Source of the DNA: Flavonifractor sp. An10
GTDB lineage: Bacteria; Bacillota; Clostridia; Oscillospirales; Oscillospiraceae
Reading direction: 5' to 3'
Length of the DNA stretch: 64,000 nt
Assembly (NCBI RefSeq): GCF_002161215.1
Contig: NZ_NFMB01000003.1
Location: 372,001-436,000 of the forward strand
The notes under the pieces are model-generated. The model saw only the letters and a list, made by a program, of their open reading frames with translations. It did no database searches and was not told the origin of the DNA. Positions within the stretch are counted from its first letter, which is position 1, and each line of letters starts with the position of its first letter. This document shows, piece by piece, positions 24,063 to 45,492 of the stretch. The position numbers and the translations under genes were made by a program.

Positions 24063-24242
24063 TGACCCAGAATCTGACCCAGAACAGGAAAAATCCCGGC
24101 GGAGCGGAGAGCATATGACCTCCGGGATCTGGAAGATTTCCGGAACAAAAAGGACCGGAAAGGGCCGGAAATCAACGGATTGAACCTCTGATAGCAGCTC
24201 ATAACCCGGAGGTCGAAGGTTCAAATCCTTCCCCTGCAACCA
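24063..24242 (+). repeat. Island right end 1 with attachment site (3' half of initiator tRNA-Met)
   Basis: 24198-24242 reads as the 3' half of an initiator tRNA-Met gene from the anticodon loop CTCATAA onward: CCCGG stem, GGTCGAAGG, TTCAAAT, CCTTC, acceptor strand, CCA. The 5' half is not present (the preceding AGCAG does not pair with CCCGG), so this is an att copy and not a functional tRNA gene. The 135 bp before it, with two TGACCCA direct repeats (24063 and 24074), recur before the att copies at 35045 and 45452 and before the decayed one at 37358. It marks the right end of an island extending leftward. Confidence 0.85.
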
Positions 24243-24243
24243 T

Positions 24244-24284
24244 AAACCCGTCAGAATTCGTGGATTCTGACGGGTTTCCTTTTG
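24244..24284 (+). terminator. Terminator directly after att copy 1
   Basis: A 14-bp stem AAACCCGTCAGAAT / ATTCTGACGGGTTT follows the CCA of the att copy by one base, then CCTTTTG. It originally terminates the tRNA transcript or the convergent integrase transcript. The same sequence lies at 35091-35124. Confidence 0.85.
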
Positions 24285-24327
24285 TTTTCATCACTTTTTC
24301 GGGCTGATTATTTTTGCCGTTTTGGTC

Positions 24328-24346
24328 TGACCCAAACCGCGACCCA
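24328..24346 (+). promoter_or_regulatory. Putative integrase arm-type sites, left end of island 1
   Basis: TGACCCA at 24328-24334 and CGACCCA at 24340-24346 resemble the pair of TGACCCA repeats, 11 bp apart, at each island right end. Such short direct repeats on both sides of the core are what tyrosine integrases of the lambda type bind with their N-terminal domain. Confidence 0.5.
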
Positions 24347-24364
24347 TACGGGATCTCGGAGCGG

Positions 24365-25522
24365 TCAGGGCTGGAGAGTTCCAGAGAGGACGCTGCCCAT
24401 GGTTTTTGCCGCCTGGCGTTGGGATGCCGTGGTCACGTGGGCGTATGTGTCCAGGGTGAACCCCGCAGAGAAGTGCCCCAGCATCCCGGACACCGTTTTC
24501 ACATCCACCCCGTTCTGCAGGGCCAGGGTGGCAAAGGTGTGGCGCAGATCATGGAACCTAACCCTAGGCAGCCCCGCCCGTTTCAGCACCCGGTGGAGCA
24601 TGTGCAGCACGCTGTCCGGGGAGATTGGACCGCCGGTAGGGCTGGGGAACACCCAGGGGCTACCGCCCACTTTTTCCTTCTGCTCTAACAGAATGCTTAC
24701 CGTATCCTCTGCCAGCGGCAGGGTGCGGTAGGCATTTTTCGTTTTTAGTGGCGCATCCACCACCTCGCCGTTGATTCGGGCAATCTGCCGCCGAACCCGG
24801 AGGTCGCCCCGCTCTAAATCAATATCCTCCCATTTGAGGCCGAGAAGTTCTCCCCGGCGGAGCCCGGTGGCCAGCTCCAGGTAGTAGAGCTCATACACAC
24901 CGCTTTCTTTTGCCTCTCTCAGGAAGGACTGTAGCTGTTCCACCGGCAGAGTTTTCATCTCCCGGTGCTCCAGCCTGGGCAGGGCGCAGCCCTCCGCCGG
25001 ATTGGCGACGATTAGTTTCTGCTCTTTGGCTAAGCTCATCGCAGAGGAGATGATCTGGTGGATGTTCCGCACTGTCTTGGGGCTCAGCCCTTTGGCCTGG
25101 TGCCTGGATTCCAATCGGTCTACGCGACCGTTGGCCAGCAGCTTCTTGTAGAACTTCTGTAGTTCCGGAGAAGTGAGCTTTTCCAGCGGGATTCTTCCAA
25201 TATTGGGCTTGATGTGGTTGTCGATGTACCCACGATAGGTCTGATGGGAGGAGGGCCGCACCTTCACCTTGGCGTAGTGCTCGAACCACACCTCCATCCA
25301 CTGGCCAACCGTGTACCGACCAACCTTGGCCGCATCCAGCCCCTTCGCTTCCTCGATTGCCTGCTTCAACTTAGCCTTGACCTCCGCCTGGGTCTTTCCC
25401 AGGACGTTTTTGTAGATAGCCTTGCCCGTCTCCGGATCGCGGCCGGCGGTATATCGTCCTTCCCATCGGCCATCTTTCCGCTTGCGGAGGTTACCCTCCC
25501 CGTTGGCCCTTCGTTTTGCCAT
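24365..25522 (-). CDS. Tyrosine integrase of island 1
   Basis: 385-aa phage-type integrase. N-terminal arm-binding domain (RRANGEGNLRKRKDGRWEGRYTAGRDPETGK), core-binding SAM-like domain (about 70-170), catalytic domain with Arg in LATGLRRGELLGLKW, Lys in the beta-hairpin LKTKNAYRTLPL, HDLRHTFATL, the second His in SGMLGHFSAG and the Tyr nucleophile in LDTYAHVT. ATG 25522 after GGAGGTAATAAGCC. It points toward the att copy at 24198-24242, the usual att-int arrangement. About 90% identical over the whole length to the integrase at 35212, with an identical C-terminal block. Confidence 0.95.
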   Translation of the reverse strand: MAKRRANGEGNLRKRKDGRWEGRYTAGRDPETGKAIYKNVLGKTQAEVKAKLKQAIEEAKGLDAAKVGRYTVGQWMEVWFEHYAKVKVRPSSHQTYRGYIDNHIKPNIGRIPLEKLTSPELQKFYKKLLANGRVDRLESRHQAKGLSPKTVRNIHQIISSAMSLAKEQKLIVANPAEGCALPRLEHREMKTLPVEQLQSFLREAKESGVYELYYLELATGLRRGELLGLKWEDIDLERGDLRVRRQIARINGEVVDAPLKTKNAYRTLPLAEDTVSILLEQKEKVGGSPWVFPSPTGGPISPDSVLHMLHRVLKRAGLPRVRFHDLRHTFATLALQNGVDVKTVSGMLGHFSAGFTLDTYAHVTTASQRQAAKTMGSVLSGTLQP

Positions 25523-25802
25523 GGCTTATTACCTCCTTTGCAGCAACACAGCATACCGCAGAAGGGGAGAAATAGCCATGCCAACGGTGCAGAGTTAACA
25601 GAACATTATCATTTGCCTTTTCTTTGTTTTATGCGGCGCAGGATTTGCGTATCCTATGCAGGGAAGGGTGCTCCTAGCCCAAACGCCCCCACAGCGTCGG
25701 TTAAAAAGGCCGGAACCAGCTGAAAACACTGGATTTCTCAAATTGACGACCACCTAAAACCGCTGTCTGTGGTGAAAAGGTGCACCTTCCGCGAAAGCCG
25801 GA

Positions 25803-25825
25803 AAAGCCCCGCACCGCGGGGCTTT
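25803..25825. terminator. Hairpin between repeat copy B and the integrase
   Basis: AAAGCCCCGC / GCGGGGCTTT with a 3-nt loop, followed by CTTTTCC on the minus strand. It would stop transcripts arriving from the frl operon before the integrase gene. The same structure is at 36650-36672. The rest of 25523-25858 has no gene I can support. Confidence 0.65.
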
Positions 25826-25858
25826 GTGGCCGGTAGGTGGACGCTTGCGACCACCTAC

Positions 25859-26192
25859 CTTTATCCTAGTACGAAAATCGAACGCCCCCAGAGGGCCCAA
25901 ACAGGGCTTCCCGGAGGCGTTCTTCTGTTGGAATTGAATGTTCTGGATGGTCAGGATCACCGCGTCATGACTTGTCCAAGACAGCCACCGCCCCACACAC
26001 GGCCCAACGCTGTCCAAATACCCTCGACAGGGGCACCCGCCTCCATCCGCTCCGAAACCGGCACACAGGGCCCACACGGCCGTGACAGGGGTCTTCCTGT
26101 GGGCGTCTGCCCCTTCCCGGAGAGTGGGTGCGGGCCACGCCCGCAAAAGGCGTTTGGCGGCCGCTTACGGCAAGCCAGGTGCTCTGCTTGCC
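25859..26192 (+). repeat. Dispersed structured repeat, copy B
   Basis: Same block order as copy A. The first hairpin keeps GAACGCC / GGCGTTC outer arms; its inner arms are GGGCCC and GGGCTT, so two G-C pairs become G-U pairs, which keeps the fold only if the plus strand is the RNA. The right end (CAAGCCAGGTGCTCTGCTTG...) stops exactly at the stop codon of frlD on the opposite strand (26193-26195). Confidence 0.8.
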
Positions 26193-26990
26193 TTACCATG
26201 CCCCGGCATAGCCCAGGGTGACGCTACTGTTTTCGGCCCCCAGGGCCATGCAGGCTGGGATGTCCTCCCCCCGCATAAGGCCGTAGAGGAAGCCGGCAAT
26301 GAAGCTGTCTCCGGCGCCCATGGTGTCCACCACCGTGCAGGGCACGATGCCCCCCCGGTAAAACCGGCTCCCGTCAAAGGCCAGGCTGCCCCGCTCTCCC
26401 CGGGTGGCCACTACGAGCTCCGGTCCCTTGGTGTGGATGGCGCGGAGGATGTCCTCCAACTCCCTGTCTCCGGCGGAGTCGTTGGAGAAAAAGGCGTAGT
26501 CCACCCAGGGCAAGGCCTTTTCCGCCGCCGGGTCCTCCGGCCGGTTGGCGCAGTCGAAGGCCACCGGTACCCCCCGGGTCTTCAACCGGGGCAGGTCGCC
26601 CTCCACCCGGCCCCACAAACCGGACACCACCAAGTCGTGGCCACAGAGGAAGTCCACGTCCTCCTCCGTCAGGCGGAAGTTCTCCATCACCCCCTCCTCG
26701 TAGTCACCGAACACCCGGTCTCCGTTTACGACCGTCACGTGGGACAGGGCGGTGGAGCCGGGCTCGGTGTGCAGGTGGGATACGTCCACCCCTTTGGCCG
26801 CCACAGCCTGCCGCATGAGTCTGCCATATTTGTCATCCCCCACCACGCCGGTATAGGAGGCGCTACCCCCCAGCCGCACGGTGTATACCGCAACATTCAC
26901 CGGGTTTCCGCCGGGGTAGGCGTCCCCCGTCTGGTCGTATAGGTCGATGCAGTTGTCCCCCACGGCGGCCAGCCTGATGTCGTCCTTCAT
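26193..26990 (-). CDS. frlD: Fructoselysine 6-kinase
   Basis: 265-aa PfkB/ribokinase-family kinase that phosphorylates fructoselysine at O6. Colinear with E. coli FrlD from AAVGDNCIDLYDQTGDAYPGGNPVNVAVYTVRLG at the N-terminus to the final YAGAW; the DRVFGDYEEGVM segment and the catalytic DTMGAGDSFIAGFLYGLM (Asp base) are conserved. ATG 26990 overlaps the frlC stop by 4 bp. Last gene of the frl operon. The stop codon abuts repeat copy B. Confidence 0.93.
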   Translation of the reverse strand: MKDDIRLAAVGDNCIDLYDQTGDAYPGGNPVNVAVYTVRLGGSASYTGVVGDDKYGRLMRQAVAAKGVDVSHLHTEPGSTALSHVTVVNGDRVFGDYEEGVMENFRLTEEDVDFLCGHDLVVSGLWGRVEGDLPRLKTRGVPVAFDCANRPEDPAAEKALPWVDYAFFSNDSAGDRELEDILRAIHTKGPELVVATRGERGSLAFDGSRFYRGGIVPCTVVDTMGAGDSFIAGFLYGLMRGEDIPACMALGAENSSVTLGYAGAW

Positions 26991-27847
26991 AGCTTCCTCC
27001 CAGCGCTTGTGCGCGTTTTTCGCAGATTTTCCGTCTCCATGGCCCGCACCCGCTCCAGGGCCCGGCGGGCATAGAGGGCGGGCTCGGACAGGTAGGCGGT
27101 GACCAGCTCGATGGTGGCCTTCCCCTGGTAGCCCCGCTCTGCCAGTTCCCTCAGAAGCTCCGGCAGAGGCAGGATCCCATCGCCGGGGATCAGATGATCG
27201 TCGCTGTGCCCATCGGAGTCCACCAGGTGCAGATGGGCCAGCTTCTTCCCCAGAAGATCCAGATAGTTTTCCACTGGCTCCCCCGCTGCCGCTGGGGGCA
27301 CCACGTCGCACATGCCCAGCAAGCAGGGAGAATCTACCTCCTCCAGGGCCTGAGCCAGCTCCCCGGCGGTGGTGCACAGGTTACTCTCCCATGGGGTAAG
27401 GCTCTCCAGCAGAATTTTATGATCCAGTGCCTCCGCTCTGTCCGCCAAACGGCGCAGGCTCTCCACCAGCCGGGCCCACAGCGCCCGCCGGGGCACGCTA
27501 TATCCCCCGTGGCCCACGGAGATGAGGGTGTACTCAGCCCCTAGGGCCTTCCCCATCTCCAGACACAGCTCCAAATATTCCATGCTGTCCTCCCACTGGG
27601 CGCGTCCTCCGGCCATATAGTTGTAGGGGTAGGCGTTGTGTTCCGGCGTGTAGACGTATACAGGCATCTGGTATTTTTCCACCATAGACCGGATTTCTGC
27701 CACACCGCCCAGCCGGAGATCCGGGGCGAAGGCGTGGGGGCGGCCTCCCCAAAGCTCGATATAGTCATACCCCAGCCGCCCGGCATCGGAAAAGGCCCGC
27801 TCCAGGGGATAGCGCTGATAGCCGCTGGTAAACATACCCAGTTCCAT
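26987..27847 (-). CDS. frlC: Fructoselysine 3-epimerase
   Basis: 286-aa TIM-barrel enzyme of the xylose isomerase-like/AP endonuclease 2 family that interconverts fructoselysine and psicoselysine. Closely follows E. coli FrlC: MFTSGYQRYPLERAFSDAGRLGYDYIELWGGRPHAFAPDL, YTLISVGHGGY, HLHLVDSDGHSDDHLIPGDG (metal-binding His/Asp) and ATIELVTAYLSEPALYARRALER. ATG 27847 after GGGAGGACGAA. The C-terminal tail ENLRKTRTSAGRKL is extra compared with E. coli. Confidence 0.93.
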   Translation of the reverse strand: MELGMFTSGYQRYPLERAFSDAGRLGYDYIELWGGRPHAFAPDLRLGGVAEIRSMVEKYQMPVYVYTPEHNAYPYNYMAGGRAQWEDSMEYLELCLEMGKALGAEYTLISVGHGGYSVPRRALWARLVESLRRLADRAEALDHKILLESLTPWESNLCTTAGELAQALEEVDSPCLLGMCDVVPPAAAGEPVENYLDLLGKKLAHLHLVDSDGHSDDHLIPGDGILPLPELLRELAERGYQGKATIELVTAYLSEPALYARRALERVRAMETENLRKTRTSAGRKL

Positions 27848-27908: not shown

Positions 27909-28904
27909 TCAGTAATCCAGCCGCCGGTAGTAGCGCCGGATCTCCATAGGATGGCAGTTGATGGCCTCCATGTGAGCGTCAATGCGCTGGGTGACGGCGT
28001 GGGTCACCAGATGGGACAGGTTTCCCCGATACTTGTCGTCGATACCGGGCAGAGCGTAGTCCCTGGAGTCGATGACGGTATAGTTGGCACACACGCGGGG
28101 CAGGAACTTCACCACCCGCTCGCCGAGGGGCCGCTGGGCATCCTCTCCCACAAACACGGTCACCGGGGTGTCCCGATCCACGATTTCCAGCATGCCGTGG
28201 AAGAACTCGGCGGCGTGGATGCTCTTGGTGCGGATCCAGTGCTGCTCCTCCCAGTAACACATGGCGTAGGAGTAGGTGGAACCGTACTGGTTGCCAGCGC
28301 CCACGAAGTAGTGGAGCCTGTCATCGTGGTGCTTCTGGGCGAACTCCAGGCCGAAGGCGTCGGCGGCCTTCTCCACTTCCACCAGATCCCGGGCCAGATG
28401 GGCATCCAGTTGGGCGTAGTACTCGTCGTACTCCGGGAACTCCCCCCGGTTGTACATAAACCGGTCGGCCACCATGAAGAACTTCAGCTGCTCATTGGCG
28501 GGGTAAGCGATCTCCCAGTCCACCATTCCAGCCAGCTGGGCGGTCTCCACGTCGATAAAACCCAGCACCCTGGCACCGGCGGCCTTGACTTTCTCCACGC
28601 CCCGCACCATCTCCTCGGTGCTGCCGGTGACGGAGGAGATCACTACAATGGTTCCATCCCCCACCCGCCGGCTGCCGGTGGTCAGGTACTCCGCCGCGTT
28701 CTCCACAAAGAGCTCCAGGTCGGAGCGCTCCTTCATGTGGACCTCGGCCTGGAGGCAGGAGGCCCAGGTGCCCCCGATGCCCAGCCAGCATAGGTTGCGG
28801 AACCCCTTCTCACAGATCTCGTCCACAATGGCCTCGATCCGCTGCCGCAGGGCCAAGGCCCCCTGTACGCTGGCAATCTGTTTTTCCTCGTCAAATTTCA
28901 GCAT
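27909..28904 (-). CDS. frlB: Fructoselysine-6-phosphate deglycase (SIS domain)
   Basis: 331-aa protein with two SIS sugar-isomerase domains that splits fructoselysine 6-phosphate into lysine and glucose 6-phosphate. Seen: LCWLGIGGTWAS and VVISSVTGSTEEMVRGVEKVKAAGARVLGF in the first domain, HAAEFFHGMLEIVDRDTPVTVFVGED (the catalytic His/Glu region, compare FRHGPLEIVEPGVPF of E. coli FrlB) in the second, and the family ending RRYYRRLDY. ATG 28904 after GAGGAGG. Assignment among SIS enzymes rests on the frlC/frlD neighbours and that ending. Confidence 0.88.
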   Translation of the reverse strand: MLKFDEEKQIASVQGALALRQRIEAIVDEICEKGFRNLCWLGIGGTWASCLQAEVHMKERSDLELFVENAAEYLTTGSRRVGDGTIVVISSVTGSTEEMVRGVEKVKAAGARVLGFIDVETAQLAGMVDWEIAYPANEQLKFFMVADRFMYNRGEFPEYDEYYAQLDAHLARDLVEVEKAADAFGLEFAQKHHDDRLHYFVGAGNQYGSTYSYAMCYWEEQHWIRTKSIHAAEFFHGMLEIVDRDTPVTVFVGEDAQRPLGERVVKFLPRVCANYTVIDSRDYALPGIDDKYRGNLSHLVTHAVTQRIDAHMEAINCHPMEIRRYYRRLDY

Positions 28905-28926: not shown

Positions 28927-30024
28927 TTACTCGCCGACCTTCAGCATCTGATAGTAGTCGTTGTAGATGGTCAGGGCCTCGCCCACATCCTCCTGGAAGA
29001 ACACATTCTCTTTGTAATCGAAATCCTTGGAGGGGTCGTTGCGGTAGGACTCGGGGGCGGCGGCCACAGCGGCGTCGTTGGGGCAGAAGTAGGGGAATTC
29101 CTCCAGGTTCTGGGCCATGACCTCGGGGTCGCAGATATAGTCCAGGAACTTATATGCCAGGTCGGTGTGCTTGGCGCCGGTGGGGATAACATACATGTCA
29201 AAGCCCAGCTGCACCGCGTCGTCGGTGAAGGGGGCCACAGTCAGGGGGCTGTCCGCGCCGCCGGTCTCGGCAAAGGCCCAGGAGGCGTTGCCATCATAGG
29301 TGAAGGCCACGCTGGCGGTGCCGTTGGTCAGGTTCTGCTCGGCGTTGCCGTAGGCCACCACGTTGTCGTTGTACTTCACCAGCCACTCATAGGCCTCGGC
29401 CAGCTCCTCCTCGTTCTCGGAGTTGGGGTCGTAGCCCAGGGCCACCAGGGCCATGGGGAACAGGTTGCGGGCGCCGTCGATGGAGGTGATCTGCCCCTTC
29501 AGGGCGGGGTCGATCAGGTCGTTGTAGCAGGTGATCTCGATGGGGCAGGTCTCGGTGTTGTACACCACATAGATGTAGTTGCCCAGGTAGGGGATGCTGT
29601 GGTTAGGGGAGGACCAGTAGGCGGGGTTGATGTTGGAGGAGTTGGGGATGCGGGACAGGTCCAGCTCCTCCACGTAGCCGCCGGCGATCAGGGACTCCAT
29701 GTAGGCGTCGCAGGTCATGATCAGGTCGTACTGGTCGCCGCCGCCGGAGGTGAGCCGGGTGACGGCGTCGGCGTTGTCGCTCATGTAGGAGATGTTGACG
29801 GTGCAGTTGTTGGCCTCCTCAAAGTCGGAGACCACCTGGTCGGAGATGTACTGCTGCCACATGTAGATGTTCAGCTCGGTGCTGGCGGTCTCCTCGCCGG
29901 TGGGGGTCTCGGCGGCGGGGGTCTCCCCGGAGGGGGGCTCGGCGGCGGGCTCGTTGCCGCCGCCGCAGGCGGCCAGGGCCAGAGCCATGGTCAGGGCCAG
30001 GATCAGTGCAAGAAACCGTTTCAT
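28927..30024 (-). CDS. ABC transporter substrate-binding lipoprotein (PotD/F-like), predicted fructoselysine receptor
   Basis: 365 aa. Lipoprotein signal MKRFLALILALTMALALAACGGG with lipobox LAAC at residue 20, then an acidic Pro/Glu/Thr linker to about residue 48, then a type-2 periplasmic-binding fold (ELNIYMWQQYISDQVVSDFEEANNCTVNISYMSDN) as in polyamine and spermidine receptors. Position between frlB and the permeases makes an Amadori compound the likely ligand; polyamines cannot be excluded. ATG 30024 after AAGGAGGCAGAC. Confidence 0.88.
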   Translation of the reverse strand: MKRFLALILALTMALALAACGGGNEPAAEPPSGETPAAETPTGEETASTELNIYMWQQYISDQVVSDFEEANNCTVNISYMSDNADAVTRLTSGGGDQYDLIMTCDAYMESLIAGGYVEELDLSRIPNSSNINPAYWSSPNHSIPYLGNYIYVVYNTETCPIEITCYNDLIDPALKGQITSIDGARNLFPMALVALGYDPNSENEEELAEAYEWLVKYNDNVVAYGNAEQNLTNGTASVAFTYDGNASWAFAETGGADSPLTVAPFTDDAVQLGFDMYVIPTGAKHTDLAYKFLDYICDPEVMAQNLEEFPYFCPNDAAVAAAPESYRNDPSKDFDYKENVFFQEDVGEALTIYNDYYQMLKVGE

Positions 30025-30103
30025 TTGTCTGCCTCCTTGTGATGTTTGGTTGAGACTGCTTCTATGCCGTATCCGCCGCGTCCTCCCGCGGCGGGGTGGG
30101 CCG

Positions 30104-30931
30104 TTACCGGGCGGCCGCCTTCTCCCTCCTGCGGAGCAGGGCCTTGACGCCGTTGCTCAGCAGCATGGCGGCCACGATCACCAGGATCATGATGGTGGTC
30201 AGGGCGTTGACGTCGGGGGTGACGCCGGTGCGGTTCATGGACAGGATCAGCACCGGCAGGGTGGAGTTGCGGGCGCCGGAGAGCATGTTGCTCATGACCA
30301 CGTCGTCGATGGACAGGGTGAAGGACAGGAAGGCGGCGGACATGATGCCGGGCACCATGCTGGGCAGGGTGACCCGCAGGAAGGTCTGGATGCGGTTAGC
30401 CCCCAGATCCATGGAGGCCTCCTCCAGTTCGTAGCCGTCGCCGCTGATGCGTCCCTTAATGGTGACCACCGCGTAGGGGATGCAGAAGGTACAGTGGCCC
30501 ACCAGGATGGATCCCAGCCCAAGGGACAGGCCCACGTTCATGAAGATGATGAGCAGGGCCACGGCCAGCACGATCTCGGGCACGATGATGGGCACGTAGA
30601 GCATGCTGTTGATGAAGCGCTTGCCCCTGAACTCGTACCGCTTCAGGCCCAGGGCGCCCAGGGTGCCGATGACCACCGAGATCACCGTGGCCAGCACCGC
30701 GATGACCAGGGAGTACCACAGGCTGCCGATGAGGGCGTCGTTCTCCAGCAGCTTGCCGTACCACTGGGTGGTGAAGCCGTTCCAGTAGAAGTTGTACTTC
30801 TGGTCGTTGAAGGAGAAGACCATCATCACCGCCACGGGGATGTAGAGCACGGTGTAGATGAGGATGGCGTACACGTCGCCCAGAATGCCGAGGCGCCGCT
30901 TGCGCCGCTGAGTCTTGGACAGGGCCGCCAT
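30104..30931 (-). CDS. ABC transporter permease, PotC-like
   Basis: 275-aa inner-membrane permease with about six hydrophobic segments and the EAA loop EASMDLGANRIQTFLRVTLPSMVPGIMSAAFL that contacts the ATPase. Positively charged start (MAALSKTQRRKRRLGI). One base separates it from the PotB-like gene. Heterodimer partner of the next permease. Confidence 0.9.
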   Translation of the reverse strand: MAALSKTQRRKRRLGILGDVYAILIYTVLYIPVAVMMVFSFNDQKYNFYWNGFTTQWYGKLLENDALIGSLWYSLVIAVLATVISVVIGTLGALGLKRYEFRGKRFINSMLYVPIIVPEIVLAVALLIIFMNVGLSLGLGSILVGHCTFCIPYAVVTIKGRISGDGYELEEASMDLGANRIQTFLRVTLPSMVPGIMSAAFLSFTLSIDDVVMSNMLSGARNSTLPVLILSMNRTGVTPDVNALTTIMILVIVAAMLLSNGVKALLRRREKAAAR

Positions 30932-30932
30932 G

Positions 30933-31847
30933 TCACACCACCTCCATGTCTTCCAGCTTGGCGAAGCGGGTGTAGATGAAGATCAGCAGCCCGGTGATCA
31001 CCAGCAGCAGCACGGACAGGGCCGCGCCCAGGGGCCAGTTGCGGATGGCGCCGAACTGGTTCTTGATGATGTTGCCGATGTAGAGGACCTTGCCCCCGCC
31101 CAGCATGTCGGACACGGTGTAGATGCCCAGGGAGGGGATGAACACCAGGATCACGGCGGAGAAGATGCCGGGGAAGGTGAGGGGCAGGGTGATGCGGAAG
31201 AAGGTCTGCCGGGGGTTGGCCCCCAGGTCGGAGGAGGCCTCCAGCAGGGAGTTCTGCAATTTCTCAATGGTGCTGTACAGGGGGAGCACCGCGAAGGGGA
31301 GCATGTTGGTCACCAGGCCCAGCATCACCAGGGGGTCGGTGTAGATGAAGGTGATGGGCCCGCTGGTGATGCCCGCCCACTGGAGGAAGGTGTTCACCGG
31401 GCCGCTGGTCTGGAAGAGGAGCAGCCAGCTGTTCAGCCGCATCAGGGAGTTGGTCCAGAAGGGGATCATGATGAGCATGATCAGCTTGGAGGCCACCTCC
31501 GGCGGCTTGCGGGCGATGTAGTAGGCGAAGGGGTAGCCCAGCAGCAGGCAGGCCACGGTGGTGAACAGGGCCACCTGGAGGGACTTGACGATGACCTTGA
31601 AGTAGATGCTGTCCAGCAGGGTCTGATAGCTTTCCAGAGAGAACTCGTACACCACATCGCCGAAGACGCCCCGGGACATGAAGCTGACATAGATGATGTA
31701 GAGCATGGGGATGGTGACGAAGAGCACCATCCACGCCGACACCGGCCCGGCCTGGGCCAGAGCGGGGATGGTCTTGCGGCGCACGTCCCGCCGGCGGTTG
31801 ATGGCCTCCAGCTCGCCGGCGCCGGCGTTTGGCTTGTGACGGCTCAT
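30933..31847 (-). CDS. ABC transporter permease, PotB-like
   Basis: 304-aa permease; EAA loop EASSDLGANPRQTFFRITLPLTFPGIFSAVILVF near residue 215. About six membrane segments after a basic N-terminal tail (RRDVRRKTIPALAQ). Thirteen bases after the ATPase gene. Confidence 0.9.
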   Translation of the reverse strand: MSRHKPNAGAGELEAINRRRDVRRKTIPALAQAGPVSAWMVLFVTIPMLYIIYVSFMSRGVFGDVVYEFSLESYQTLLDSIYFKVIVKSLQVALFTTVACLLLGYPFAYYIARKPPEVASKLIMLIMIPFWTNSLMRLNSWLLLFQTSGPVNTFLQWAGITSGPITFIYTDPLVMLGLVTNMLPFAVLPLYSTIEKLQNSLLEASSDLGANPRQTFFRITLPLTFPGIFSAVILVFIPSLGIYTVSDMLGGGKVLYIGNIIKNQFGAIRNWPLGAALSVLLLVITGLLIFIYTRFAKLEDMEVV

Positions 31848-31860
31848 TTCCGCGCCCCCT

Positions 31861-37079: not shown

Positions 37080-37221
37080 AAAACGTCCCCTTGACCTCCA
37101 GCCTCCGGATGGGTTACTCCAGGCACGGCACAGAGCCAAGTTCTTCCTTCTGAATTTCCCCGTAGGGGCTAACCCCTTTTTTGTTTTATTGCGGCGCAGC
37201 TTTTGAGGTGGGTCTACCGCC

Positions 37222-37392
37222 TTGACCCTGAATCTGACACAGAACAGGAAAAATCCCGACAGAGCGGAGACTATATGACCTCTGGAATTTGGCAGATTTC
37301 TGGGATAAAAAGGGCCAGAAAGCGCATGAAATCAACGGATTGAACCGTTGGTAGCAACTTCATAACCCGGAGCTCGGAGGTTGACACCCTTC
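37222..37392 (+). repeat. Decayed island right end and att copy
   Basis: The 130-bp right arm is recognisable (TGACACAGAACAGGAAAAAT, CATGAAATCAACGGATTGAA) and 37358-37392 matches the tRNA-fMet 3' half with several changes (GGAGCTCGGAGGTTGACACCC). It lies only 2.3 kb after att copy 2, so an island reduced to integrase plus repeat C seems to be followed by cargo of a further island. Confidence 0.75.
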
Positions 37393-38261: not shown

Positions 38262-38520
38262 CAGAATTCTTCGATGGCCAGGCTCGCCGCGTCATGACTG
38301 TCCCAGACAGCCACCGCCCCACACACGGCCCAACGTCGTCGAAGCCCTCTGGCAGGGGCACACACCTTCTCCACCGCCTCGAAACCGGCACACAGAGGTC
38401 ACACGGCCGCCACAGGGGTCCTGTCCGGCAATCCTGCACATGAGTGTGACTTCCCCCGCCAGGAAAGTGGGTGCGGGCCACGCCCGCAAATGCGCCGGGC
38501 GGTCGCTTGCGGCAAGCAGA
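38262..38520 (+). repeat. Dispersed structured repeat, copy D (5' part missing)
   Basis: Starts within the GATGGCCAGG block and lacks the CTTTATCCTAGTAC hairpin; then GTCATGACTGTCCCAGACAG, GCCCCACACACGGCCCAACG, AAACCGGCACACAG, CACACGGCCGCCACAGGGG and GTGGGTGCGGGCCACGCCCG. Its right end GCTTGCGGCAAGC stops 2-3 bases before the stop codon of the next minus-strand gene, the same placement as copy B. It fills most of the 38134-38522 gap. Confidence 0.75.
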
Positions 38521-38522: not shown

Positions 38523-39386
38523 CTACCCTCTGATCAGCTGAGCGCAAAGGGCAAACGCATCCGGACTCCCGATGCCAAAATCCAACAGCCAACTTCGGAG
38601 CTTTTTCAGGGCCCGCGGCTTCGGAGCGGCCTTCTCCATCGGTTCCATGGAGAGCCAGTTCGCCGACCAGTTATGGGTGGAGCAGGAGGCCAGCTTTTCC
38701 CGGTCGTCGTCCCCTACAAAGCAGACACAGGGGTGAGGCGTGCCATCCTCACAGACGCCCTGGAGAAACAGGCCGGCCGGGATGCCGGCGGTTCTGACCC
38801 AGTTGCCGTCGGAGAAGGGAAGCTCCAGGTCGGGCAGATGGTGGAGGATCGGCTCTTTTTCGCCGGGAAGGCGGTGCTCCGCGGCCCCCCGCAGAAATGA
38901 CTCCTCCCGGAGTTCCCCCAGCCCCGCCCGCCGGAGCAGAGCATCTCCCAGGACGGGATAATGGGGAAACCAGACGCCGCACGCATCCCGCACCATCAAA
39001 AAAGCGCCGATAAATCGTGCCTCCCCGCTTGGCAGGGGATCAAACAGTTGCAGCAGCGGGTCTGTCCCGACAGAAGGGCACACAGACGCATGAAGGGCCG
39101 CATCCAGGCGGAAGTATGGTTCCTGGTCTTCCCGCCAAAGATACAACCGGTCCGGGAGGGCCTCATAAAACGCCTGCCAAGCCGCCCGGAAGGTCTTTGC
39201 CAGAAACCGAATGGCGCGGGCCTCCGCCGGGTTCGCCTCCGCCGCCAGCCCCTCCAGCAGCTCCGCCTTCCGGTTCATAGGCAGGGGGGCGCAGGCGATG
39301 ATTTGACCCTGTTCAAAGGGGGTAAGGGACTGGCAGGCGAGCCAGGCGGCGATACGGGGGGATGAGATCAGCGCTGGGATATTCAC
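38523..39386 (-). CDS. Protein of unknown function, AAA+/WYL island module
   Basis: 287 aa, GTG start 39386 seven bases after AAGGAGG. No family recognised. The N-terminal half is helical and Ala/Leu-rich (MNRKAELLEGLAAEANPAEARAIRFLAKTFRAAWQAFYEALPDRLYLW), the C-terminal half mixed with HPCVCFVGDDDREKLASCSTHNWSANW. No signal peptide or membrane segment. Last gene of the minus-strand run that begins with the AAA+ gene; 30 bp after the previous gene. Confidence 0.65.
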   Translation of the reverse strand: MNIPALISSPRIAAWLACQSLTPFEQGQIIACAPLPMNRKAELLEGLAAEANPAEARAIRFLAKTFRAAWQAFYEALPDRLYLWREDQEPYFRLDAALHASVCPSVGTDPLLQLFDPLPSGEARFIGAFLMVRDACGVWFPHYPVLGDALLRRAGLGELREESFLRGAAEHRLPGEKEPILHHLPDLELPFSDGNWVRTAGIPAGLFLQGVCEDGTPHPCVCFVGDDDREKLASCSTHNWSANWLSMEPMEKAAPKPRALKKLRSWLLDFGIGSPDAFALCAQLIRG

Positions 39387-39416
39387 ACAGCATCCTCCTT
39401 CTCAGGATGAAGGCAG

Positions 39417-40163
39417 TCACGGGTGTCGGATTGTTACAGGCTCTTTCAGATTCTTAAGGCTTGGCTCAAAAATATGACAGGCGGGGTGGTACACATAATA
39501 AACGTCAGTCCATTCACTTTTGCCTGGGAGCCACACATGTTGGGGTCCGCCCTTGTTCCAGGGCTGAATCCCGAGCATCTCAGCGACCACATCAAAGCAG
39601 CCACAGCAGACGATGATCTCCGGAGACAGAAGTTCAATCTCCCGTATGATGAAGGCCATGTACTTTTGAACATACTGCTTCAGCTGCGTGTTATTGCAAT
39701 CCCCAAATCCACCCCGTTTATTCAGGTTTATATATCCAAAAGATTCTGTACCGTTCCGCCCCAATGCTTCAAAAACCGCTTGAAACCTATTTGCATATAT
39801 TTTCCTTGTCGAACTATTTATGCACTCGTTGAACCAGAAGCGACCGCTGGTTTCCGGACCAATGGCGCCGTAGCCGCTGAGATTGGCCTCCTTTAAAATA
39901 AAAAGCACCTGCACACTTTGGGTACACGGCTGTCTGACAGGCACCTCCATGCGGGTGACGCCGTCCGGGCAGAAGCTGCCCCTGAATTTTTCCGTGTCCT
40001 CATCGTCTACTTTTTTGCCGCCCCTGCCGATGGGATAGGTGTCCGGATAACCTTCAGAAAGCTGTTCGCACAGATGCGCCGCCCTCCAGAGCACAAAAAG
40101 CTCCTCCAGATTTGAGCATCGTTCAATGCCTTTTCCCCAATCAAAATACTGGTTCATACTCAT
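39417..40163 (-). CDS. Possible uracil-DNA-glycosylase-fold protein, AAA+/WYL island module
   Basis: 248 aa. Two segments resemble the uracil-DNA glycosylase superfamily: VQVLFILKEANLSGYGAIGPETSGRFWF near residue 85 (position of the first active-site strand) and YMAFIIREIELLSPEIIVCCGCFDVVAEMLG near residue 165 (the strand-helix EIxxxxPxxIxxxG pattern). The C-terminal YYVYHPACHIFEPSLKNL could supply the family histidine. The match is by eye and weak; a nucleotide-processing enzyme or a pure structural relative are alternatives. ATG 40163 lies 22 bp after the WYL gene. Confidence 0.5.
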   Translation of the reverse strand: MSMNQYFDWGKGIERCSNLEELFVLWRAAHLCEQLSEGYPDTYPIGRGGKKVDDEDTEKFRGSFCPDGVTRMEVPVRQPCTQSVQVLFILKEANLSGYGAIGPETSGRFWFNECINSSTRKIYANRFQAVFEALGRNGTESFGYINLNKRGGFGDCNNTQLKQYVQKYMAFIIREIELLSPEIIVCCGCFDVVAEMLGIQPWNKGGPQHVWLPGKSEWTDVYYVYHPACHIFEPSLKNLKEPVTIRHP

Positions 40164-40185
40164 CCCGTCTGCTTCCCCTCTCATT

Positions 40186-41241
40186 TTATTGGTACCCCTC
40201 CAGCGCCCGCTCCAGCATCCCCTTCACTCTGTCCCGTAAATCCTCCGGCTCCAGGACGGTCACATGGGGTGCGAAGCTCTTGGCGAACTGCTCCACAGAC
40301 ATTTCGTTGGCGAACACCGTGGCAGTGACACCGTTGTCATCCTCGTCAGAGAAAGCGATATCCATCCCAAATAGGTCGATCATATCGCTGACCAGGAAGG
40401 AGGCGATCCGCAGCCTGGCCCGGCAGTCGCCGCTGGCATACATATAGACATGGCGCCTCATATACTCCGCCAGATCCAATGGGCGGCCATCCGTCCCCGT
40501 CAGGGAGGAGAAGGGCCGGGCGGACTCATTCAGCACCTCCAGGTCACAGATGCGGTCCAGCCGGTAGTTGGCCACATTGTCGTGGCTGTCATGGTTGCAG
40601 ATAAGGTAGTATTTTCCCTCCCTAGCCGCCATCTGGTAGGGAGTGACTACATACTCCCGGACGCTGCCGTCGGACCGGGTACGAAGGTGCTGCTGCTTGT
40701 CCGTGCGGTACTCCAGATAGTGAAAGGAGACCTTCCGGTTTCTGCAGATGGCCTCGTCCAGCAGCTCGATGTTGAGAAAGAGCTGCCGGTTGTCGGTCCG
40801 GTCCTCCGGCATGGGAGCGATATGGCCCACCCGGGAGCGGAAATAGACACTGGACAGCTCCTCCAGCTTCTCCACCAGCTCCCTGCACTGACTGTGGGGC
40901 AGGTGCCGGGAGAAGAGAAGCCCGTCAATGAGCAGCCGCAGTTCCCCGTCGGTAAACTCCCGCACCAGGTAGAATTCAGTGAGGATAGTGTTCTCCGCCA
41001 ACTCCCCTGTCCGGGGGTCCGATGTAGTGCGGGCGATCTCCGTGTATTCAACACCCAGGCCGAACTCCACCAGATCCATCAGGTTGCGTTTGATGGCCTT
41101 CCGGTCGGCGGTCATACCGTACCGGCTGCGCAGCAGGTCGCCAATCTCCCGCTGGCTGAGCCTGTGGTTCTCGTCGGAGTATCTGCGCAGGATGTCCAGA
41201 ATGTTCACGATCAGCAGCTTCTTGGGCTGTTTGGCATACAT
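40186..41241 (-). CDS. WYL-domain transcriptional regulator
   Basis: 351 aa. N-terminal winged helix (LLIVNILDILRRYSDENHRLSQREIGDLLRSRYGMTADRKAIKRNLMDLVEFGLGVEY, residues 7-65), then a WYL domain (RKVSFHYLEYRTDK...YVVTPYQMAAREGKYYLICNHDSHDNVANYRLDRICDLEVL, about 165-230) and a C-terminal WCX-like extension. WYL proteins sense nucleic acids or nucleotides and often control DNA-damage or anti-phage genes. Start chosen at ATG 41241, seven bases after GGGAGGGA. Probably autoregulates this gene set. Confidence 0.9.
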   Translation of the reverse strand: MYAKQPKKLLIVNILDILRRYSDENHRLSQREIGDLLRSRYGMTADRKAIKRNLMDLVEFGLGVEYTEIARTTSDPRTGELAENTILTEFYLVREFTDGELRLLIDGLLFSRHLPHSQCRELVEKLEELSSVYFRSRVGHIAPMPEDRTDNRQLFLNIELLDEAICRNRKVSFHYLEYRTDKQQHLRTRSDGSVREYVVTPYQMAAREGKYYLICNHDSHDNVANYRLDRICDLEVLNESARPFSSLTGTDGRPLDLAEYMRRHVYMYASGDCRARLRIASFLVSDMIDLFGMDIAFSDEDDNGVTATVFANEMSVEQFAKSFAPHVTVLEPEDLRDRVKGMLERALEGYQ

Positions 41242-41282
41242 GGTCATTCCCTCCCCCACTTCAGTATAGCAGAGCTGTCCCC

Positions 41283-42050
41283 TCAGGGCAAGGGCGGGCC
41301 GGAAAGCCTGCTGTAATCGGGCATGGCCGCGTCTTCATCCACGGGGGCGTGGAAGCTGTCCCCTCCGTTCTGGTCGTTCCACAGTGCCAGCAGGGCCTGA
41401 TATACCGTGCCCGGAAAATAATAGCTAGGGGCCGGGCCTGCCAGGACGGCGGCCAGCTCTGAACGTTCCTCCGGGGAAAGCCTGTCTTCTGCCGGGGAGA
41501 GCCAGGCGGGCTCCGTCAGGCTGACCGCCGCTCCCGTGCCGTCCGGCCGGACATAGTGGAAATGGGGCCGGGGCTCACAGTCGTCTGTTCCGATCCGCAG
41601 GGCGAATTTCCCCCGGCGGGTAAAGGCCGTAGCCCAGTCCTCCCGCTGCAGCAGATTAACGTAGAAGGGGCGGTGGAGTTGTTCCGGTACCTGGCAGGCG
41701 TTGTAGGCGTTCCACGCGGCCATGGCCTGTTCCCAGTTAGTGGGGTCGCCCGGCGCTCTCCGTTGGCGAAAGAACCGCTCCAGCTCCCACCGCCGGGAGA
41801 GGGGCAGGTTGTCGTGGGGCTCCATGGGCCGGGCATCTTCCAGCAGCAGGCAGATCTCCCGGCCCCGGCCATACCGAAAGAAGAAGTGGGGCTTGTCAAA
41901 GTCCCGGCACGGGGCGCACACCAGCACCTGCCCGCCCCGGTCAGTCCAGCCCACCAGGAGGAAGGACTGACCGTCGGGGCCGGTAATCCGGCTACCGGTG
42001 ACAGGACGGAGCTTTTCCCTGAGTCGGGCAATCAGCTTCGGCAATCTCAT
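41283..42050 (-). CDS. Protein of unknown function paired with the AAA+ ATPase
   Basis: 255 aa, ATG 42050 nine bases after AGGAGG, 14 bp after the AAA+ stop, so co-translated with it. No family recognised. Two similar-looking halves each contain a beta strand with PHF and an Arg/Gly turn (DFDKPHFFFRYGRGREICLLLEDARP near residue 50 and CEPRPHFHYVRPDGTGAAVSLTEPAWLSP near 155), hinting at an internal duplication. No membrane segments. Likely an adaptor or target of the ATPase. Confidence 0.65.
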   Translation of the reverse strand: MRLPKLIARLREKLRPVTGSRITGPDGQSFLLVGWTDRGGQVLVCAPCRDFDKPHFFFRYGRGREICLLLEDARPMEPHDNLPLSRRWELERFFRQRRAPGDPTNWEQAMAAWNAYNACQVPEQLHRPFYVNLLQREDWATAFTRRGKFALRIGTDDCEPRPHFHYVRPDGTGAAVSLTEPAWLSPAEDRLSPEERSELAAVLAGPAPSYYFPGTVYQALLALWNDQNGGDSFHAPVDEDAAMPDYSRLSGPPLP

Positions 42051-42064
42051 AACGGCATGCCTCC

Positions 42065-44083
42065 TTACGCAAAGCCGATGGTCCTCCGCTCTGGCCGGCT
42101 TTCGCATACCGGCGCCTCAAAATCCTCCGCCAGCAGGAGGCCTACCTCCCTGGAGGATACCCGTTCCGGCCCGACCCGCACCAGGCGGCTGGCCTGACGC
42201 ATGCAGGCCCGTTCCAGCAGGTTCCGGGCCAGACGGCCATTTCCGAAGTCCGGCGTTTTTACCGCGTCCCGGTAGATGGCCAGGAGCTTCTCCGCCGCCG
42301 CTGGCTCCACCGTCAGCTTCTTTTTTTCCGCCAGCAACCGTGTGATGTCCACCAGCTGCTCCGGCGTGTAGTCGTCGAAGGGTACATGGAAGGCGATGCG
42401 GGAGCGCAGGCCAGGGTTCTGTTCCAGAAACTGCTCCATTTTGTCGGGATAGCCGGCGAAGATCACCACCGTGCTTCCCCGGGCGTTCTCCATCTCCTGG
42501 ACGATGGTGTTGATAGCCTCATCGCCGTAGAGACCCCGGCCGTCTGCCAGGGAGTAGGCCTCGTCGATGAACAGGACGGAGCCTTTGGCCTTCCGGAAGG
42601 CCTCCTGTACCAGTTTGGCGGTCCAGCCCACATATTTGCCCACTAGGTCGGCCCGCCCCACCTCATGGAGCCGTCCATAGGGCAGCACCTTGTTTTCCAC
42701 CAGAATCTCCGCCAGCAGCCGGGCCACAGTGGTCTTGGCCGAGCCGGGGTTCCCGGTGAAGGCCATGTGCAGGGCAGGCATGGCGCAGGCCATACCCTGG
42801 GCCGCAAACAGTTTCTGCGCCTTGGCGTAGTCCAGGATTTGATCCGCCACAGCTTTGACCCGCTCCAGCCCCACCAGCTCCTGGAGATGCCGATAGGCGT
42901 CCCCTTTGGGCTTCCGGGCGGCAGCCAGATCCCGGGCGGGGGTCATGTGGGCATACTGCGGATAGACCCGGCTGCGCAGGAGGCAGTTGTGCCAGCGCCG
43001 GTACCGCTCGTCCAGCTCCGTCCGGCGGAGGCTGGGCCCGCTGTCCAGGCCCCGGTAAAGGGTCCGGTCCCCCGGCACCCCGTCCTTTTTCGCCCTTCTT
43101 CGGAGATAGGCCCGGGCCTGCTCCGGTGTGGCGGGCTCCTCCCGGAGTTCCACCAGCACCGTGCCCTCCAGCTGCTCGAGCAGGGCCTCCCGGGCCTCCG
43201 CAGCTCCTGTCGGCAGGCAGACCACCAGCTGGAGGCTGTCCCCGAAGAGGTCGAAGCAATCCGCCAGCAGCTTGATGCCGTTCAGGTCGCTTTTGGCAAA
43301 GGCGTCGCCCCGTTCCACCTCCCCCGCCATCACGACCAGGGCGCCGTGGGCAGCGTTGCCGCAGATCTCGGTCACATCCATGAAGCCCTTTATATCATCC
43401 AAATCGCAGATGCAGTACCGCCGGCTCTCCAGCCTACCGGCCTGGTACAGCGCCTGGAGCAGGAGCCCGGCAATTTCCTGCTGGTCCGGGACATGCTCCG
43501 CCTGAACCAGATAGTGAACCGGATAGCCTCCGGAGAACGTGGCGGCGGCGGGGCGGCGGACGCGCTCCAGTTCGGGAAGGAAGGTGCCGGAGCACATAAG
43601 TTCCTCTGCCCGACGGGCCAGCTCCGCCCAGGGGCGCTTCCGGGCCAGCAACTTGTCCCGGAGTATGCGGCTGTCAGACTCGAAGTGGTGCCCCCCTCGC
43701 CGGTAAAAGTGCAGGCAGGCAAACTGGTCCAGCCAGGAGCGCCAGTCTGCCACCAGCCTCTGATCCTCCGCCTTCTCCAGCATACCCCGCAGCCGGCTGC
43801 CGGTGATCTCCTCTGCCTTCTCCAGCCGGACTCCGGTCAGCCCCAGACTTTGGAGGAAGTCCTGGGGCTCCCGTCCCAAGTGTTCTGTCAGTGCGGCGCC
43901 CAGGATGAGGTGATTCTCATGATATTGCTCCAAAAAGATGAAGTAGTCTTTTTCAAGTCCGTTTTCATCCAGGCGGAACGCCTCGATCTGCTCCCGCAAC
44001 AGCGACCGGTCGGCCTGGTCCTCCTTTTCCGGAAGCACCTGCTCGGCGTTATCCGCAGTAAACGTAAAGCAATAAAACAGCAT
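42065..44083 (-). CDS. Two-domain AAA+ ATPase (CbbX/SpoVK-like C-terminal domain)
   Basis: 672 aa. The C-terminal AAA+ module (about 405-650) has LVGLERVKAVADQILDY, Walker A FTGNPGSAKTTVARLLAEIL, pore segment VGRADLVGKYVGWTAKLVQEAFRKAKG, Walker B SVLFIDEAYSL, sensor 1 VVIFAGY and Arg finger NPGLRSRIAF, as in CbbX and SpoVK. The middle (about 235-350) looks like a degenerate AAA domain without a Walker A (RRYCICDLDDIKGFMDVTEICGNAAHGALVVMAGEVERGD, LQLVVCLPTGAAEAREALLEQL). The N-terminal 230 residues are unknown. ATG 44083 after GGGGGAAG. First gene of a five-gene minus-strand set; it should remodel or unfold a partner protein. Confidence 0.88.
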   Translation of the reverse strand: MLFYCFTFTADNAEQVLPEKEDQADRSLLREQIEAFRLDENGLEKDYFIFLEQYHENHLILGAALTEHLGREPQDFLQSLGLTGVRLEKAEEITGSRLRGMLEKAEDQRLVADWRSWLDQFACLHFYRRGGHHFESDSRILRDKLLARKRPWAELARRAEELMCSGTFLPELERVRRPAAATFSGGYPVHYLVQAEHVPDQQEIAGLLLQALYQAGRLESRRYCICDLDDIKGFMDVTEICGNAAHGALVVMAGEVERGDAFAKSDLNGIKLLADCFDLFGDSLQLVVCLPTGAAEAREALLEQLEGTVLVELREEPATPEQARAYLRRRAKKDGVPGDRTLYRGLDSGPSLRRTELDERYRRWHNCLLRSRVYPQYAHMTPARDLAAARKPKGDAYRHLQELVGLERVKAVADQILDYAKAQKLFAAQGMACAMPALHMAFTGNPGSAKTTVARLLAEILVENKVLPYGRLHEVGRADLVGKYVGWTAKLVQEAFRKAKGSVLFIDEAYSLADGRGLYGDEAINTIVQEMENARGSTVVIFAGYPDKMEQFLEQNPGLRSRIAFHVPFDDYTPEQLVDITRLLAEKKKLTVEPAAAEKLLAIYRDAVKTPDFGNGRLARNLLERACMRQASRLVRVGPERVSSREVGLLLAEDFEAPVCESRPERRTIGFA

Positions 44084-44103
44084 GCAGCTTCCCCCTTCTG
44101 CCC

Positions 44104-44157
44104 ACAGGATAGCGGATTGGATGGGGCGTTTTTGCCCCATCCAATCCGTTATCCTGT
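44104..44157. promoter_or_regulatory. 24-bp near-perfect inverted repeat between divergent genes
   Basis: Arms 44104-44127 and 44134-44157 (ACAGGATAGCGG... against ...CCGTTATCCTGT) match at 23 of 24 positions around a 6-nt loop. It sits in the 104-bp gap between the AAA+ gene (minus) and the gene at 44188 (plus), where a terminator makes no sense. A binding site for the WYL regulator or an RNA switch are the natural readings. Confidence 0.6.
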
Positions 44158-44187
44158 ACCCGTAACATCCAAAGGGAGGGGCTTGTC

Positions 44188-45207
44188 ATGGAAAAGGCGA
44201 CCGCAGCGGTGCTGGAGCTCATCGAGTCCGCGGAAATGCGCGGCTATCTGAAAAAGGTGGGGGACACGCTGCCCCTCCAGGTTTGGCTGGAGGCTGCGGC
44301 AGGCGCACCGGCGCCGCTGGAGAAAAAGCTGGCGGTTCTGGAGCGGATCGCCCTAGCACAGACAGAGCCGGGTGCGCGCCGGCTGGCAGAGGAATACTGC
44401 CGGGCCGCAGCACGGGTGCTGGAGGCGCTCACCGGGCCGCAGATACCGGGCACGGTGTTCCAGCTGGTGCAGATGTCCGCCGCGGAAGATTCAAACCGAA
44501 TAGAACGGGATGATGTATTCCTTTTTACTAAGTGGAAAGCGGTACAGGCCTTCGCAAGGTCCTATCTGGATGAGCTCTATGAGGACGAGCCGCCGGAAGA
44601 GAAAGCCCGCCCCTGGTACTGGTACGAGCTGACCCTGTGCCGGCCGGAAGAGGGCGGTATGCTGCGCCCCGGGGCATACACCTATCTGCTGTCGGCGGCG
44701 GGAGAGGCCTGGCTGTTCATGCGGGAGCGCCCGGACGGGAAGGCCACACCCCAGCCAGAGGAGGACTTCTGGTGGTCCGGCCTGAGTCTGAACCTGCCCG
44801 TCCCGTTCCGGCCCGGCGATATCCTTACAGTGGACTGCCGGCCCTTTGCCGGCCCGGGTCGGTGCCTGGTTCTGGAGGTAGGGGACAACCGGGACTGCTG
44901 CTGCGTGCAGGTGCTCTATCCCTGCCCGGGCGGCCGGGCGGACGTCGGCGCGCTCAAGCACGGACACTGCTTTTGCAGCGGGGTGGTGCAGATCCTCTCG
45001 CCCCTCTACCGGGTATCCCGCTGGACAGGTCAGCTCCCGCCGGAGGAGGTGTTTCTGGAACCGCTCAGCCGAAAGCTCCACGCCGACCCGCTGCTGGGGC
45101 CCAGGCTGTGGACCGCTATTTACCGGTACGAGCTTGAGACCGACCGGCTAGGCGGCCAATCCTCCTCCGGCATCCCGGTGGCGGATCTGCTCGCCCTGGT
45201 TCCATAG
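44188..45207 (+). CDS. Protein of unknown function, divergent partner of the AAA+ operon
   Basis: 339 aa, ATG 44188 after GGGAGGGG. No family recognised. N-terminal 95 residues helical (EKLAVLERIALAQTEPGARRLAEEYCRAAARVLEAL), followed by a beta-rich domain (LRPGAYTYLLSAAGEAWLFMRERPDG, FRPGDILTVDCRPFAGPGRCLVLEVGDNRDCCCVQVLYPC) that has an unusual DCCCVQ cluster. No signal peptide. Divergent from, and sharing a palindromic control region with, the AAA+ gene, so it likely works with it. Confidence 0.65.
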   Translation: MEKATAAVLELIESAEMRGYLKKVGDTLPLQVWLEAAAGAPAPLEKKLAVLERIALAQTEPGARRLAEEYCRAAARVLEALTGPQIPGTVFQLVQMSAAEDSNRIERDDVFLFTKWKAVQAFARSYLDELYEDEPPEEKARPWYWYELTLCRPEEGGMLRPGAYTYLLSAAGEAWLFMRERPDGKATPQPEEDFWWSGLSLNLPVPFRPGDILTVDCRPFAGPGRCLVLEVGDNRDCCCVQVLYPCPGGRADVGALKHGHCFCSGVVQILSPLYRVSRWTGQLPPEEVFLEPLSRKLHADPLLGPRLWTAIYRYELETDRLGGQSSSGIPVADLLALVP

Positions 45208-45313
45208 ACGGAACCCTTCCGATCCACATGCCCGATGGTGCCGTTTTGTCCGCGAGCCGCGCGCTGAGCCATTTTTTGTTTATAGCGGCGCAAATCTTGA
45301 GGCGGCTCTACTG

Positions 45314-45492
45314 CTCTGACCCATAACCTGACCCAGAATAGGAAAAATACCAGCGGAGCGGAGCATATATGACCTCCGGGATTTGGCAGATTTTCGGAGT
45401 AAAAAGTGCCGGAAATCGTCTGAAATCAATGGATTGAATTTCTGACAGCAGCTCATAACCCGGAGGTCGAAGGTTCAAATCCTTCCCCCGCA
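45314..45492 (+). repeat. Island right end 3 with attachment site cut by an IS
   Basis: TGACCCA repeats, the conserved right arm and the tRNA-fMet 3' half from 45452. The match stops at CCCCCGCA (45492); the expected ACCA is missing and hairpin-rich IS200-type sequence begins. It closes the array visible here. Confidence 0.83.

Follow-up and report, generated by a model that had tools for sequence, protein, structure and literature searches.

The 64,000-nucleotide stretch of Flavonifractor sp. An10 DNA analyzed here (hereafter, the window; C9:372001-436000 of a 3.88-Mb genome in 15 contigs) contains three genomic islands, D, E, and F, and the remnant of another, G, arranged in tandem and separated by copies of the 3′ half of the initiator tRNA gene (tRNA-fMet). 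We consider it likely that small elements with tyrosine integrases accreted head to tail at this tRNA half, and propose that they are transferred in trans through a noncoding block resembling the origin of transfer (oriT) of MobL relaxase elements. On sequence grounds, we read this block as a borrowed oriT and the islands as relaxase-less mobilizable genomic islands (MGI/iOriT type) stacked by accretion. The system is of a known kind, real, and present in many Oscillospiraceae. It is unusual in its tandem, closely related integrases, its internal junctions that resemble attP sites, and its MobL-type oriT-like block on islands in which no relaxase was found. Among the matches listed for open-licence literature on islands, accretion, MobL oriT, and fructoselysine, there was no account of this stack.

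A stack anchored at the initiator tRNA gene

A preliminary description of the window had reported the tRNA-fMet 3′ half in three clear copies and a decayed one, each preceded by a common arm. We located these cores on the forward strand: copy 1 at 24197-24242 (one mismatch to the host tRNA over 46 bp), copy 2 at 35044-35089 (identical to the host tRNA), the decayed copy 3 at 37359-37404, and copy 4 at 45451-45492, where 42 bp are identical before the end and the right arm are interrupted and an IS200-type element follows. A 47-bp pattern allowing up to three mismatches matched exactly the three good copies and had no match in 100 shuffles. ARAGORN called zero tRNAs within the window. The true tRNA gene does lie elsewhere, as had been supposed: a whole-genome search found a complete tRNA-fMet at C9:321806-321882, 74 kb upstream of the window copies on the same contig and strand. 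A tRNA 5′ half beside one of the copies, which had been named as grounds for abandoning the idea, adjoins none of them.

The position of the complete gene implies that the stack spans ~96 kb (C9 321.8-417.5 kb), with the tRNA at one end. The search also added core copies at C9:329352 and on C12 (core, 145743-145786; core and arm, 145743-145921), and a truncated arm alone at C9:345135, a stack boundary that has lost its core. The features by which tandem accretion is recognized are thus both present: the core recurs at the boundaries, and the target gene stands intact at one end of the stack.

The left (P) arms, each ~135 bp, lie on the forward strand at 24061-24195 (before copy 1, with TGACCCA-N5-TGACCCA), 34908-35043 (D/E junction), 37221-37358 (E/F junction), and 45315-45450 (end of F), and are 76-87% identical pairwise. 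The right (P′) arm at 24243-24364, on the same strand, contains a terminator-like hairpin and a TGACCCA-type repeat. Left and right arms alike carry TGACCCA-N5-TGACCCA-like repeats, which are probably the arm sites of the integrase; such a repeat occurred in 554 of 20,000 background windows of 200 bp (2.8%).

Integrases and attachment-site layout

Two integrases of about 90% identity had been placed directly after copies 1 and 2. Indeed, the 385-aa integrase of D (24365-25522, reverse strand; PF00589, 3.5e-29) and that of E (35212-36369, reverse strand; 4.7e-29) are both full-length open and share 359 of 385 residues and 1049 of 1158 bases. The D translation contains R222, H324, R327, and Y360, which we take to be the catalytic residues. 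Related integrases occur in Flavonifractor An306 (91% identical) and Flavonifractor An82 (97% over 330 residues). D and E each have their own integrase and att sites, F and G are without an integrase in this genome, and the integrase of the C12 island is broken.

We then examined the arms at the 44 closest (L101-L144) of 76 named integrase loci; several come from one genome, and they are hence not independent. An integrase was counted as adjacent within 400 bp, and core matches ending before tRNA position 60 were excluded, leaving 51 cores. A core was present at 36 of the 44 loci and absent from 8, and 14 loci had at least two. Full tRNAs had the right arm and never the left, both with an adjacent integrase (right arm 12/13, left arm 0/13) and without one (4/4 and 0/4). 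Half cores with an adjacent integrase had the right arm in 16/16 cases and the left in 13/16, two of the three misses having less than 90 bp of contig there; half cores without one had the left arm in 17/18 and the right in 4/18. The layout in relatives is regular, and its predicted assignment is tRNA plus right arm as attL, left arm plus half-tRNA as attR, and internal junctions with both arms.

Different repeats mark some other boundaries, namely GGCGCACA beside the tRNA-proximal 507-aa integrase, and CTAACAC at the 329-kb copy, at C12, and in G006, so that at least three integrase classes appear to share the tRNA-fMet site. In the tRNA-proximal integrase (L009:9977-11500), a helix-turn-helix domain separates the SAM-like from the catalytic domain. 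The G006 island (L050:11965-18169) is a hybrid of two classes: its left end is of the CTAACAC type and its right end of the TGACCCA type, and it has an oriT-like block but no integrase called. In 15 of the 44 loci, a small DUF6809 (PF20648) protein, a candidate directionality factor, is encoded directly upstream of the integrase (for example, L101:8574-8852).

A full unit reads core, right arm, integrase, noncoding block, cargo, left arm, core; the same make-up recurs in other species with other neighbours, and the core is flanked on both sides by the arm repeat of this integrase class. The integrase would recombine an incoming circle, whose attP comprises left arm, core, and right arm, with the tRNA or a resident junction, each integration restoring a full tRNA and adding one half-tRNA. 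E, without cargo, and F and G, without integrase, would represent decay stages, and F and G would depend for any movement on a neighbour's integrase acting at their ends.

An oriT-like block in common with MobL operons

All four islands share a forward-strand noncoding block between the integrase end and the cargo. It lies at 25756-26192 in D (hairpin, motif A at 25862, motif 2 at 26057), at 36604-37063 in E, where no other gene was called, and at 19157-19500 in G (motif A at 19157, motif 2 at 19354). F, at 38273-38517, has the motif-2 part, 76% identical to E over 258 bp.

Motif 2 (ACCGGCACACAGGGNNNNCACGG, at most one mismatch) gave 13 matches in 6 of 60 genomes, and its reversed control none. 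Eleven of these lie in or beside islands, two of them near contig edges with no integrase in view; the other two precede a 139-156-aa protein and a MobL relaxase (PF18555, ~1e-26). Motif A (CTAGTACNAAAATCGAACGCCCC, at most two mismatches) gave 20 matches in 7 of the 20 genus genomes (control, 0). It stands ~0.6 kb upstream of four MobL starts, G000:C10 and G000:C8 in this genome and G014:C210 and G014:C222 in a relative; one match (G019:C32) has neither island nor MobL in view. The D block is 86% identical over 96 bp (E 2e-27) to the region upstream of the MobL gene at G014:C222, which has motif 2 with two mismatches and whose MobL gene is in two frames. At G000:C10 and G014:C210, the hairpin, motif A, and motif 2 follow in the same order upstream of the MobL operons, with no relative of the D/E integrase in the 12-18 kb examined there. 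Seven MobL genes, including that of C10 itself, are at least 70% identical to the latter: four have motif A, two are without it, and one has no upstream sequence.

Neither PF03432 nor PF18555 relaxases matched in C9:396-418 kb or among the scanned D-F proteins, other relaxase families not having been searched genome-wide, and none of the nine PF03432 relaxases of this genome has a motif within its ~3.3-kb locus. Given the oriT-like block and no relaxase of the two searched families, a MobL element together with a conjugation apparatus could mobilize the excised circle in trans. The islands may thus travel between cells by imitating another element's transfer origin. The common block also points to a candidate helper-hitcher pair, both members of which lie in this genome, for testing how islands without transfer genes move. 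A hexamer that looked by eye like a MOBP nic site was rejected, being not conserved among the blocks, and Rfam returned sub-threshold matches only for window positions 24000-46500.

Several observations weigh against mobilization in trans and simple accretion. Motif A is missing upstream of two of the six closest MobL genes and of the more distant MobL loci examined, and motif 2 was not found upstream of the C8 MobL gene, even at five mismatches. F retains the motif-2 part of the block only. The terminator-like hairpin, found upstream of many MobL genes, makes up part of the block similarity; motif A is found next to integrases of other classes as well (G000:C8:294767, C11:171009), and so may be general backbone; and the block folds no better than shuffles. 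No circles, excision, or transfer were seen. DUF6809 has no match in the window, hence none in D or E, and their excision may therefore be impaired. The chromosomal right end was not located: tRNA-fMet-downstream DNA of 15 relatives, 8 of these pieces being shorter than 1.6 kb, shared no common flank with C9:312001-456000, and neither did one 5.6-kb G018 query compared with the whole genome. Finally, three left ends adjoin unrelated DNA instead of a core (C12 here, An82 C12, and G019 C43; L092:6393, L095:6739, and L096:11931), and these are not explained by simple integration at tRNA-fMet.

Some of these points would suit an account in which the accretion is genuine and the block is a regulatory or integrase-accessory backbone region, with transfer by phage, transformation, or homologous recombination. 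The block adjoins the integrase end, includes the hairpin, gives no fold signal, and shares motif A with other integrase classes. We nevertheless consider this account unlikely: the order of hairpin, motif A, and motif 2 recurs at the two MobL operons away from any related integrase in the DNA examined, the block or a part of it is kept in the integrase-less F and G, and a Pfam scan of the D, E, and F proteins found no phage structural gene. Candidate phage vehicles were rejected as well. One faecal scaffold, with a 75% integrase match and a repeat resembling the right arm, had neither a tRNA-fMet core nor an exact terminal repeat of 12-200 bp; of 15 loci in viral contigs, 14 matched at 31% or less, and one was an 84% fragment beside a half core.

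Modules in related genomes

The idea of a stack had also been held to fall if relatives never lacked single islands. A cross-species comparison showed that single islands do differ among species of the genus, and D and G each occur elsewhere as independent units. D is found in An82 at another locus (C12:272374-282946) with 94.3% identity over 10.6 kb, the rpoB region being 91.5% identical. The An306 counterpart of G matches in two pieces (93.8% over 1401 bp and 91.6% over 1998 bp) within a discrete core-integrase-cargo-arm-core island; it sits between two cores with the 91% integrase, and its middle genes differ from those here. Among the matches listed for 20 genus genomes, this one included and several incomplete, partial cores (at least 85%) occur in at least G000 (this genome), G002, G006, G015, and G018, and in G012 at a contig edge.

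The T-stem of the 329-kb core reads GGAGG/CCTCC, the allele of G002, G004, G005, G016, and G018, against GAAGG/CCTTC in the tRNA of this genome; a core on An82 C59 shows the reverse situation. In an rpoB tree of 10 genomes, the GGAGG allele forms one clade of four, and cores bearing the allele of another clade look like tags of inter-clade transfer. Overwriting of the tRNA by islands was rejected, as the T-stem alleles fit this tree and overwriting is not needed.

At the orthologous C12 loci, the cargo is frl-type in An82 and consists here of a GHKL/LytTR pair and two GH3 glycosidases. Their right flanks are 96-98% identical in three pieces, their integrase ends also match, and the DNA beyond their left ends had no match in the stretches compared. 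Modules might, then, now be exchanged mainly by homologous recombination between common ends (integrase/block and arm/core), with the integrases as relics. The differing cargo and broken integrase at C12 favour this, as do the ends of two integrase classes on the G006 island. We think it improbable, however, because the D and E integrases are full-length open with visible catalytic residues, and the arm repeats are kept at nearly every junction of the relatives. Segmental duplication within this genome, suggested by the likeness of the D and E ends (300 bp at 94%; integrases 93% identical), is most improbable, given that the islands are unlike in cargo, other species carry D and G each as a separate unit, the four arm copies differ by 13-24%, and one core outside the window has the T-stem allele of another clade.

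Relation to known systems

Accretion of mobilizable islands invites comparison with several known systems. MGIs such as MGIVflInd1, and elements termed 'iOriT', are described with the same combination of own tyrosine integrase, no relaxase found, and an oriT-like sequence resembling that of a possible helper (PMC5704250, PMC11389934). Here, in contrast, the presumed helper is MobL in a Clostridia genus, the target is the initiator tRNA, closely related integrases stand in tandem, and mobilization is a prediction. As in tandem accretion of integrative and conjugative (ICE), integrative and mobilizable (IME), and cis-mobilizable (CIME) elements, full and decayed units share one core, F resembling a CIME. 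A review holds that the integrases of functional elements in tandem are, as a rule, only distantly related to one another (PMC5704250), whereas two neighbouring integrases here are 93% identical, and the junctions carry both arms of one class.

Tycheposons are also tRNA-anchored tyrosine-recombinase elements with nutrient cargo, tRNA-Met being among their sites (PMC10872708), but they come from marine and freshwater bacteria and are counted among proposed phage satellites (PMC11389934). A tRNA site, tyrosine recombinase, and cargo of this type are present here. Described tycheposon families carry replication or packaging modules, and we do not class the stack among them. Like an integron cassette array, the stack is a row of exchangeable modules behind one anchor; unlike in integrons, the units have their own integrase and whole operons, and the integron integrase model gives this integrase 41 bits against a cut-off of 265. 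More tentatively, it is possible that gut Oscillospiraceae possess a family-wide plug-in system of operon-sized cassettes, each with an integrase and a MobL-type borrowed oriT, stacked at the initiator tRNA. Because internal junctions have the core between a left and a right arm, a single resident integrase could excise or take in any neighbouring unit, even one without an integrase. The stack would then behave as an integron whose cassettes are entire operons, with resident MobL elements driving the spread.

Cargo of the islands

The islands had been described as carrying complete metabolic or unknown gene sets, which holds for D (metabolic) and F (unknown) and fails for E (35.0-37.3 kb), which consists of integrase and conserved block with no cargo gene found. 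The cargo of D is a predicted fructoselysine-type operon, apparently for fructosamine use. On the reverse strand, it comprises an frlD-like fructoselysine 6-kinase (26193-26990; NF007321, 362 bits, cut-off 247), an frlC-like fructoselysine 3-epimerase (26987-27847; NF007360, 377 bits, cut-off 305), a SIS-domain, frlB-like deglycase candidate (27909-28904), and a spermidine/putrescine-type ATP-binding cassette transporter with binding protein, two permeases, and ATPase (28927-32976); two GntR/UTRA regulators follow on the forward strand (33300-34809). For the SIS protein, FrlB is the best NCBIfam model (NF008481, 57 bits, below the cut-off of 430); it matches PDB 3eua at E 4e-33, and its top PDB matches are 8glr and 2a3n. 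In Faecalibacterium prausnitzii, a fructoselysine operon varies among strains, is reportedly enriched in healthy individuals relative to inflammatory bowel disease, and is suspected to be mobile (PMC12136445). The stack offers a tangible route by which this group of gut bacteria could gain and lose catabolic operons.

F encodes a WYL regulator, a CbbX/SpoVK-like AAA ATPase, and unknown proteins (38523-45207). As a defence island it was rejected: PADLOC gave no system, its matches being to a WYL regulator model (7e-27) and, weakly, to IetA (6e-7). The G remnant (19154-24196, forward strand) lacks its own integrase and left core. Besides the block and the right-hand arm, it has an open reading frame aligning with a sigma-54-type regulator of An306, an antiporter (PF03553), and an agmatinase (TIGR01230, 207 bits, cut-off 174).

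Among the loci examined, 21 stretches are bounded by two cores, three of them with the end of another integrase class, and 7 carry transport or catabolic cargo: D, agmatinase/M20/DcuC (L101), AbgT/glutaminase/MFS/M20 (L108), TRAP/transketolase (L117), octopine-dehydrogenase-like/M24 (L121), GH3 (L132), and aminotransferase (L050). Eight of the other 14 had no cargo protein scanned by Pfam, and the remaining six are E, F, and stretches with a leucine-rich repeat protein, a LysR regulator plus nucleotidyltransferase, a mechanosensitive channel, and a PdaC-like protein. The view of the site as a stacking platform for adaptive modules therefore suits D, the remnant G, the island on C12, and a number of relatives. 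It suits less well the empty E and F with its unknown function, and the 7 stretches with such cargo are a minority of the 21, although 8 of the rest were outside the cargo scan.

Other features of the stack and its surroundings

Between the 329-kb and 345-kb boundaries on C9 lies another stacked unit (L009:18049-19254; L010:36-5963) with MoxR-like, VWA, CobN-type chelatase, and radical SAM proteins. A T4SS-DNA_transf coupling-protein gene at L010:15710-17488 (C9:347.7-349.5 kb) may be left over from a conjugative element within the stack. Within the window, a malonate decarboxylase gene cluster (881-7651) is located between stacked units. Two large serine recombinases and neighbouring small proteins occupy 8949-14945; an 86% match of G019:C43 14120-18240 to C9:386128-382013 suggests that this region is another mobile unit. 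A Thiolase/MaoC/CoA-transferase/GntP/LysR cluster lies at 46561-55153, part of which is found inverted 13-18 kb downstream of tRNA-fMet in G033, of another genus. The IS200-type element directly behind core copy 4 (45493-46300; Y1 transposase, 45625-46146) recurs with the same left end beside the truncated arm at C9:345136 (L010:13136), placing it at two junctions.

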